Source: Nitrosotalea sp. (GTDB lineage: Archaea > Thermoproteota > Nitrososphaeria > Nitrososphaerales > Nitrosopumilaceae). Taken from it: DNA of 64,000 nt. The notes under the pieces were generated by a model. It saw only the letters and a program-made list of their open reading frames with translations, ran no database searches and had not been told where the DNA came from. The position numbers and the translations under genes are program-made. Location of the stretch: positions 38,019 to 102,018 of the forward strand of contig JAHEXH010000001.1 in the NCBI GenBank assembly GCA_023252235.1, given 5' to 3'. Positions 14,674-57,975 of this stretch are shown here, in pieces; positions within the stretch are counted from its first letter, which is position 1; each line of letters opens with the position of its first letter.

Positions 14674-15648
14674 GTGTGTATGATGACAATTAAAATGAAA
14701 AAAGGGTCACCTCACATAGATAAAATTTTCAAGTATATTGCTATAGGTGCAGGCACGTATGTTGTCGCACTTGTAGTCATGTTAGTAGTTAATCTCAGTA
14801 CTGGTTCTGTACAAGTATGGCAGCATGAAGGGATAGGATTTCTTACAGGCTCGGATTGGAATTCTGTAGAGGGTAGAGAGTCTTATGGAGCATTCCCTTA
14901 CATAATGGGTACTCTTGTCAATGCTGGAATTGCCATGTTGATCTCAGTACCACTAAGCTTTGGAATTGCAATGTTCCTATCTGAACTCTCACCAAAATTA
15001 TTGAGAACTCCCCTTGCAATGGTTGTAGAACTTCTTGCAGCCGTTCCAAGTGTGATATATGGATTATGGGGTCTGTATGTTTTTAGAACATATATTCAAG
15101 ATTGGATTGAGGTTCCACTCCACAATTTATTTGGAGATCAAAGTATAATATTTGCTGGAACTCCATTTGGGTTGGATATTCTTACTGCAAGTATAGTTTT
15201 AGCTATAATGATAGTTCCTACTATTGCCTCTATTTCAAGAGAAATAATGATAGCAGTTCCAAACAGTCAACGTGAAGCTGCATATATGCTTGGAGCAACA
15301 AAATGGGAGGCTTTTAGACTTGCAGTATTACCGTATTCAAAATCTGGATTAATTGGTGCAGTAATACTTGGCCTTGGAAGAGCTGTAGGAGAAACTATGG
15401 CAGTTACAATGTTGATAGGAAATACAACTGGAGCAGCAGCTATTCCGACCTCGTTATTCCAACCAAGTCAGACAATGGCTAGTATTATGGCAAATGAATT
15501 TGCTGAAGCCTCACAAGGAGGTCTTCATTTGGCGGCTCTAGTTGGTATAGGTTTAATTCTTTTCATTATTGCTTTTCTTATCAATGTAATTGCACATTTT
15601 CTTGTCGCTAAGGTAGTCAAGTCACATGAGGGGGCAGTATTGGCATGA
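14674..15648 (+). CDS. pstC: Phosphate ABC transporter permease PstC
   Basis: MWQ..GIGFLTGSDWNSVEG...YGAFPYIMGTLVNA..REAAYMLGATKWEAF; position before pstA/pstB. Confidence 0.95.
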   Translation: MCMMTIKMKKGSPHIDKIFKYIAIGAGTYVVALVVMLVVNLSTGSVQVWQHEGIGFLTGSDWNSVEGRESYGAFPYIMGTLVNAGIAMLISVPLSFGIAMFLSELSPKLLRTPLAMVVELLAAVPSVIYGLWGLYVFRTYIQDWIEVPLHNLFGDQSIIFAGTPFGLDILTASIVLAIMIVPTIASISREIMIAVPNSQREAAYMLGATKWEAFRLAVLPYSKSGLIGAVILGLGRAVGETMAVTMLIGNTTGAAAIPTSLFQPSQTMASIMANEFAEASQGGLHLAALVGIGLILFIIAFLINVIAHFLVAKVVKSHEGAVLA

Positions 15649-24474: not shown

Positions 24475-24520
24475 GGTTTTCTATTTGAGTGATGACTTTT
24501 TGAAGTTTATGATGTATGGT

Positions 24521-24640
24521 CCCACGCGCAGGATTTGAACCTGCGACAACCCGGTTTCTGTAAGCCTGATAGGCTGAATGACGGTTAGCCGATGGCCAAC
24601 CACTACAGCCGGAAGCTCTACCAGGCTGAGCTAGCGTGGG
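24521..24640 (-). tRNA. tRNA-Tyr(GTA) with ~47-nt intron at position 37/38
   Basis: Reverse complement CCCACGCTAGCTCAGCCTGGTAGAGCTTCCGGCTGTAG-[47 nt]-ACCGGGTTGTCGCAGGTTCAAATCCTGCGCGTGGG; C1-G72 typical of archaeal tRNA-Tyr. Confidence 0.92.
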
Positions 24641-25464: not shown

Positions 25465-25878
25465 TTGGTAATGAGTAAGCCATCTGAACTTGGTGCGCTA
25501 AAAATTGGCTCCTACATATTACTTCCAGTAGGTGGTCCAAATGAAGAGCCATGTAGAATCGTTGAATATGATACAAGTAAACCCGGTAAACACGGTGCAG
25601 CAAAGGCAAGAATAGTTGGAGTTGGAATATTTGACAAGAAAAAATATTCACACGTTTCACCAGTCAGTGCACAAGTTCAAGTTCCTCTTATTGATAAACG
25701 AGTAGGTTCTATAATTTCAAAAACACCAGCAAGTACGCAGATAATGGATTCCGAAACATTTGAAGTGTTTGATGCGCAATTGATTGAAGACGAAATCAAG
25801 GACAAAGTTGCACAAGGTTCAGACGTTGAATACTGGAAAGTCATGGACAGAACTATTATAGTCAGAATCAAGAATTAA
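25465..25878 (+). CDS. eif5a: Translation initiation factor aIF5A
   Basis: CRIVEYDTSKPGKHGAAKARIVGVGIFDKKKY: hypusine-loop motif KPGKHGAAKAR. Confidence 0.97.
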   Translation: MVMSKPSELGALKIGSYILLPVGGPNEEPCRIVEYDTSKPGKHGAAKARIVGVGIFDKKKYSHVSPVSAQVQVPLIDKRVGSIISKTPASTQIMDSETFEVFDAQLIEDEIKDKVAQGSDVEYWKVMDRTIIVRIKN

Positions 25879-25883
25879 AATTC

Positions 25884-25949
25884 GGATGCTGATGATGACG
25901 AGAAAAGCCAACTGATGGCATGATGAAGATTATGAGTATTGAAGCATCC
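25884..25949 (+). ncRNA. Candidate C/D box sRNA, D guide complementary to the elongator tRNA-Met(CAU) anticodon loop
   Basis: GGATGCT/AGCATCC terminal stem; C ATGATGA (25892-25898), D' CTGA (25912-25915), C' ATGATGA (25920-25926), D-like TTGA (25939-25942); guide AGATTATGAGTA puts C34 of CUCAUAA at the fifth pair from D. Confidence 0.75.
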
Positions 25950-26002
25950 ATGCTTTTCAAAAATTAGAACTAGTTATACAGTACAACGTGTATGGATACC
26001 CT

Positions 26003-26116
26003 GTGAAAGGTCTTTGTCATGTTTGCTTGGCATCTAATATGGAAACTACTCTAAAGGGACATCTCTCTTTATGTAATAATTGCTTAAAACGAGTAAATGA
26101 ACTGGAAAAAAATTAA
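26003..26116 (+). CDS. Mini zinc-binding protein (37 aa, GTG start)
   Basis: MKGLCHVCLASNMETTLKGHLSLCNNCLKRVNELEKN*: two CxxC pairs. Confidence 0.55.
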   Translation: MKGLCHVCLASNMETTLKGHLSLCNNCLKRVNELEKN

Positions 26117-57900: not shown

Positions 57901-57975
57901 GGACCCGTAGCATAGCTTGGATAGTGCGGACGCTTGCGGAGCGTCAGGTCGTGGGTTCGAATCCCCCCGGGCCCG
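57901..57975 (+). tRNA. tRNA-Arg(GCG) with two non-canonical stem oppositions
   Basis: GGACCCG...GACGC-TTGCGGA-GCGTC anticodon arm...GTGGG-TTCGAAT-CCCCC...CGGGCCC-G; A3/C70 and T50/C64 do not pair. Confidence 0.85.

Follow-up and report, generated by a model that had tools for sequence, protein, structure and literature searches.

The window analysed here is a stretch of 64,000 nucleotides from a Nitrosotalea-type archaeon; the relatives retrieved through aIF5A place the host near Candidatus Nitrosotalea. On its forward strand lies the gene for aIF5A, and 5 nt past the aIF5A stop codon starts a 66-nt element with the organisation of a box C/D sRNA. On the 3' side, the ORF and Pfam analyses place a 42-aa Cys-rich protein, a diphthamide synthase (Dph6-like) and SRP54. 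The 42-aa protein (window 25988-26116), which sits between the element and the Dph6-like gene, has four cysteines, is kept in Nitrosotalea at 55-80% identity and matches no Pfam family above the cut-off. The features of the locus are as follows.

25471-25878, + strand: aIF5A, upstream neighbour and probable host transcript (ORF; Pfam IF5A-like_N)
25884-25949, + strand: predicted box C/D sRNA gene, 66 nt (sequence; homologues; covariance model match, E=1.4e-21)
25884-25890, + strand: 5' strand of the terminal stem, GGATGCT, pairing with 25943-25949 (99.5% of cells paired)
25892-25898, + strand: C box ATGATGA (sequence; near-invariant in alignment A1)
25899-25911, + strand: D' guide CGAGAAAAGCCAA, 13 nt; N+5 residue G25907, predicted to face 23S C2510 (E. 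coli numbering)
25912-25915, + strand: D' box CTGA (sequence; CTGA in 65/67 homologues)
25920-25926, + strand: C' box ATGATGA (sequence; homologues)
25927-25938, + strand: D guide AGATTATGAGTA, 12 nt; N+5 residue G25934, predicted to face C34 of elongator tRNA-Met(CAU)
25939-25942, + strand: D box variant TTGA (TTGA/ATGA/GTGA in Nitrosopumilaceae, CTGA in Nitrososphaeraceae)
25943-25949, + strand: 3' strand of the terminal stem, AGCATCC (stem pairing across homologues)
25952-25958, + strand: 3' trailer GCTTTTC, complementary to the element's own D' guide; GGCTTTTC in most close relatives

Read from 25884 to 25949, the element is GGATGCT-G-ATGATGA-CGAGAAAAGCCAA-CTGA-TGGC-ATGATGA-AGATTATGAGTA-TTGA-AGCATCC, which agrees exactly with the length, 7-bp stem, C and C' boxes (ATGATGA), D' box and D-like TTGA described in the first-pass annotation. 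Of the hallmarks of archaeal box C/D sRNAs, it displays a perfect C box adjoining a 7-bp covarying stem, with UUGA as the D box, internal C' and D' boxes, guides that are 13 and 12 nt long (about 12 nt being expected), and a guide-to-target pairing with N+5 twice, at tRNA-Met C34 and 23S C2510. A scan for the stem and the C, D', C' and D boxes at correct spacing, for which the pattern was drawn up with the element already known, gave exactly one match in the 64-kb window and one, the orthologue, in the complete 1.8-Mb chromosome of Nitrosotalea devanaterra (G035). The window also carries genes for tRNA-Tyr(GTA) (24520-24640, - strand, 47-nt intron), tRNA-Leu(CAA) (1070-1168, - strand, 19-nt intron) and tRNA-Arg(GCG) (57901-57975, + strand), and an ARAGORN 'tRNA-Stop' at 15054 that is without Rfam support.

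Conservation and gene context

Across 58 distinct sequences, pairing within the terminal stem amounts to 99.5%, as compared to 26-45% for slid controls, and four of its seven pairs have changed on both sides. The boxes, both guides and the covarying stem recur in these 58 sequences; the element is therefore not a product of chance, and the conservation in relatives on which the initial proposal was to be judged is found. Matches to the covariance model at E<=1 were obtained in 270 of 301 Nitrososphaeria genomes, a number to be read as an upper bound because a minority of the weakest matches are other C/D sRNAs, and the strong matches share the same D' guide. From these alignments, the predicted sRNA is conserved across Nitrosopumilaceae, with homologues carrying the same D' guide across the class.

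In nearly all Nitrosotalea genomes, the element lies 3' of aIF5A, and in other Nitrosopumilaceae it is found near aIF5A or some kilobases off (1.2-2.3 kb at loci L101, L109 and L118). Nitrosopumilaceae and families f3, f7 and f12 share the gene order aIF5A - sRNA - Dph6 - SRP54. The element is located upstream of Dph6-SRP54 in families f21 and f22, and downstream of aIF5A in several Nitrososphaeraceae; at loci L370, L374 and L378, no aIF5A was detected within the ~1.5 kb searched. The genes of the RNP proteins were searched in the close complete genome of N. devanaterra. Nop5 and fibrillarin are encoded there by adjacent genes, and L7Ae is also encoded (PF01798, 1.4e-67; PF01269, 6.4e-87; PF01248, 2e-30, respectively).

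The D guide and C34 of elongator tRNA-Met

The N. devanaterra chromosome contains the complement of the D guide, TACTCATAATCT, at only two sites; one is the sRNA itself and the other the elongator tRNA-Met gene with its intron. The guide pairs at 12 of 12 positions with the pre-tRNA-Met(CAU) of this genome and at 11 of 12 with the spliced tRNA. The 16-nt intron is most likely placed between positions 30 and 31, as the CCAGA/UCUGG stem is thereby restored; the last intron base therefore supplies the twelfth pair, which leaves eleven for the mature tRNA. The anticodon arm of elongator tRNA-Met, named as the target in the first-pass annotation, thus stands, the more exact partner being the intron-containing precursor. 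A comparison with the tRNA-Met of this very genome had also been proposed. The window's own MAG, being incomplete (54%), contains neither tRNA-Met, which is absent among the 24 tRNAs detected in it, nor rRNA, and the complementarity was therefore tested in relatives, of which the nearest carry the same D-guide target in their tRNA-Met genes (12/12). Almost every elongator tRNA-Met gene detected in Nitrosopumilaceae carries the identical target core CTCATAATCTGG, and the D-guide changes within the duplex are mostly G-U tolerant.

Counting upstream from the D box, N+5 is G25934, opposite C34, so that the originally claimed register at C34 of CAU is exact for this copy with the tRNA taken from relatives. 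The conserved UAUGAG is separated from the D box by 2 nt in 55 of 67 homologues, by 3 nt in 10 and by 1 nt in 2. N+5 at C34 accordingly holds for 55 of them, but is off by one in the remaining 12 (L076-L094 included), where U33 or A35 would be the target under strict counting. In these copies, either a shift of one base is allowed by the register, or the modification is a different one. An obligatory action on the pre-tRNA through pairing of N+1 with the last intron base was also considered. The N+1 position varies (A, AA, AC, GC, G and others) without following the intron, and its pairing is therefore not needed. A probable initiator tRNA-Met gene of N. devanaterra (G035 C1, ~1651212-1651300) has its intron behind CTCATAA. 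The resulting sequence, CTCATAATC, matches the D guide over 9 nt and sets C34 at N+5; the initiator precursor is a possible second target.

The D box of the 67 homologues reads UUGA in 49, AUGA in 14 and GUGA in 3, and CUGA in none, whereas the D' box is CUGA in 65. In Nitrososphaeraceae, the same guide is followed by a CUGA D box. This distribution identifies the loss of the D-box C, as judged from the alignment, as a trait of Nitrosopumilaceae; the non-canonical UUGA pointed out at first is real, but it is family-wide and not peculiar to this copy. The UGA of a D box forms the sheared G-A pairs of the k-turn, and this core is kept in all three variants.

The sequence of the D guide differs in families f4, f12 and f3. 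At loci L375, L377 and L380, which belong to f12 and f4, the D guide of f12 is CGAATCAGAG and that of f4 ATATCGAGGA, with CTCTGATTC and CTCGATAT as the respective target-like sequences, and the rRNA-directed D' guide is kept in both. This swap suggests a retargeting to other C34 tRNAs; a search for matching tRNAs did not find any for the altered guides of f12, f4 and f3. Four loci among the weak covariance-model matches (L384, L387, L389 and L390) were set aside as different sRNAs, because their D guides are of the GATCTTGAG type, complementary to a tRNA-Leu(CAA) anticodon arm. They are probably separate Cm34 guides.

The absence of the canonical C from the D box throughout Nitrosopumilaceae, next to a D' box that is canonical in nearly all copies, and the drift of the nominal N+5 in 12 of 67 homologues could also mean that only the D' guide is productive and that the D half is a weak or chaperone-like binder of tRNA-Met. 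The replacement of the D guide in f4 and f12 with retention of the D' guide points in the same direction. However, conservation across Nitrosopumilaceae is roughly equal for the two guides, the D guide matches tRNA-Met uniquely with N+5 at C34 in 55 of 67 homologues, UUGA retains the UGA of the k-turn core, and Nitrososphaeraceae combine CUGA with the same guide. Cm34 of elongator tRNA-Met is, moreover, sRNA-guided in other archaea. A D half without guide activity is thus considered unlikely.

The D' guide, 23S rRNA C2510 and the 3' trailer

A target of the D' guide, which the first-pass annotation had not given, was located in 23S rRNA at CGGCUUUUCC, with N+5 at C2510 (E. coli numbering). The conserved D' core GAAAAGCC pairs with a single site of the rRNA operon in a sense-strand scan, LSU UCGGCUUUUCCC, which corresponds to 2506-2517 of E. 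coli 23S rRNA on alignment with the latter. C2510 adjoins A2503-U2506 of the peptidyl-transferase centre. In the genera with a GGAAAAGCCG guide, several of them in Nitrosopumilaceae, the D' duplex comprises 10 perfect pairs, and permutations of this 10-mer match these rRNAs at a frequency of 0.0024. In Nitrosotalea, the duplex is shorter, at 8 contiguous pairs, and is mismatched at N2 and N11.

The strongest evidence for this target is a compensatory change of guide and rRNA. All 15 Nitrosopumilaceae LSU genes found have GGCUUUUCC (U2512), and the guides have GGAAAAGCC; all 18 matching genomes of other families have GGCUCUUCC (C2512), and in these families the guide of the true homologues reads GGAAGAGCC or CGAAGAGCC. 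A guide A thus faces rRNA U2512 and a guide G faces C2512 in the true homologues, which supports the predicted pairing. The compensation was probably a single event at the base of Nitrosopumilaceae, at an exactly paired position.

In the summary of a Pyrobaculum survey, tRNA guides are described as having a second guide that is target-less (PMC7994747), and the D' match to 23S rRNA might by the same token be coincidental, with only the tRNA guide being productive. The short Nitrosotalea duplex with its two mismatches would fit such a coincidence, and C2510 was not found as a known methylation site in the literature searched. On the other hand, the alternation of GGAAAAGCC and GGAAGAGCC follows that of U2512 and C2512 across families, the duplex reaches 10 perfect pairs in several Nitrosopumilaceae genera, and in f4 and f12 the D' guide is retained next to a changed D guide. 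A fortuitous D' match is therefore regarded as improbable.

Independent promoters are uncommon for archaeal C/D sRNAs, many of which lie within 25 nt of an ORF (PMC7994747); it is thus likely that the sRNA is processed from the aIF5A transcript. Beyond the terminal stem by 1-4 nt, most homologues of the Nitrosotalea clade and three others carry a trailer, GGCUUUUC or a variant (alignment A3), in which GGCUUUUC is a copy of the sRNA's own rRNA target. The trailer forms 6-10 contiguous pairs with the D' guide of the same RNA, as compared to ~3-4.5 for shuffled trailers, and in several lineages its flanks covary with the guide (GCCTT/AGGC, GCCA/TGGC, TAGAAAAG/CTTTTCTA, GGAAAAG/CTTTTCC). This complementarity is absent in the Nitrosopumilus and Nitrosarchaeum homologues. 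In the window copy, the predicted fold pairs the trailer with the D-side stem strand instead; as the loci are also related, the trailer pairing is treated as a lead. The trailer may be a mask of the D' guide in the precursor, a target mimic or a mere U-rich terminator. Masking until processing, or a mimicry by which the mature RNP would bind its own aIF5A-sRNA precursor, is put forward as a tentative possibility.

The element might also be no gene at all, and the aIF5A 3' UTR might instead contain a k-turn or a palindrome (a terminator or mRNA element) mimicking a C/D sRNA. The 5-nt distance from the stop codon, leaving no space for an own promoter, and the trailer able to pair with internal sequence would fit this view. 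It is very improbable in view of two guides with independent, register-correct targets, of the persistence of the element far from aIF5A (L101, L109, L118) or with no aIF5A in the ~1.5 kb searched (L370, L374, L378), and of the lack of own promoters in most archaeal C/D sRNAs (PMC7994747).

Comparison with known guides and significance

The element is very probably an archaeal box C/D guide sRNA, with a D guide for Cm34 of tRNA-Met and a D' guide for Cm2510 of 23S rRNA. Its identification as a C/D sRNA, made at first from the window alone, is strengthened by the agreement of box architecture, compensatory stem, unique tRNA-Met match, N+5 at C34, RNP genes in a close relative and class-wide conservation. 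The RNA would probably be released from the aIF5A transcript by cleavage in its 3' untranslated region, and L7Ae, Nop5 and fibrillarin would bind to its C/D and C'/D' k-turn motifs. In the assembled RNP, the D guide would pair with the elongator tRNA-Met anticodon arm, to the greatest extent before removal of the intron, leading to 2'-O-methylation of the wobble C34; the D' guide would pair with the 23S rRNA counterpart of E. coli 2507-2516, leading to 2'-O-methylation of C2510 beside the peptidyl-transferase centre.

Guided Cm34 of tRNA-Met is already known, and the present sRNA would add another example. As the first-pass annotation had stated, this nucleotide is a target of archaeal C/D sRNAs: sRNA-guided Cm34 of pre-tRNA-Met is on record for Haloferax (Joardar et al. 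2011, cited in PMC6601510; predicted in PMC2584109) and is predicted for Pyrococcus sR49 (PMC2584109). By description, the Haloferax volcanii RNA resembles the present one in being a stand-alone C/D sRNA acting in trans on the same target nucleotide, with the intron-containing precursor tRNA as the best match. Going by the same descriptions, the present RNA differs in that only the last intron base pairs, the D'-C' loop is short (3-4 nt in most homologues) and the second guide has an rRNA target. Pyrococcus sR49 is likewise described as an exonic, stand-alone C/D sRNA for tRNA-Met C34 (PMC2584109). Human SNORD97 and SCARNA97 are, by description, also box C/D RNAs for Cm34 of elongator tRNA-Met, but they are eukaryotic and two RNPs cooperate (PMC6601510).

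An Rfam search with the window element found no family at gathering score, and gave weak matches to sR41 and other C/D RNAs. The best, RF01126 sR41 of Pyrococcus, covers the whole element at E=0.0005 and 23.9 bits, the gathering score being 54 bits. UAUGAG precedes the D box in both RNAs, whereas the D' guides are unrelated; the proposed target of sR41 is 23S G1950 (PMC2584109). No C/D sRNAs of Nitrosopumilus or Thaumarchaeota were found in that part of the journal literature which was searched.

Less usual in the present case is that a single RNA combines a tRNA guide with an rRNA guide, that it persists throughout the class, and that in some families the D guide has changed with the D' guide kept. 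One RNA thus appears, from the complementarities, to serve both a tRNA wobble base and a base of the peptidyl-transferase centre. Archaeal C/D guides are described as fast evolving (PMC7994747); the present RNA retains its rRNA-directed half throughout the class-wide sample and lies in an aIF5A-Dph6-SRP54 cluster. If the reading of the trailer were true, guide supply would be coupled to the expression of a translation factor. For ammonia-oxidising archaea, the present findings predict two methylations, at tRNA-Met C34 and at 23S C2510.
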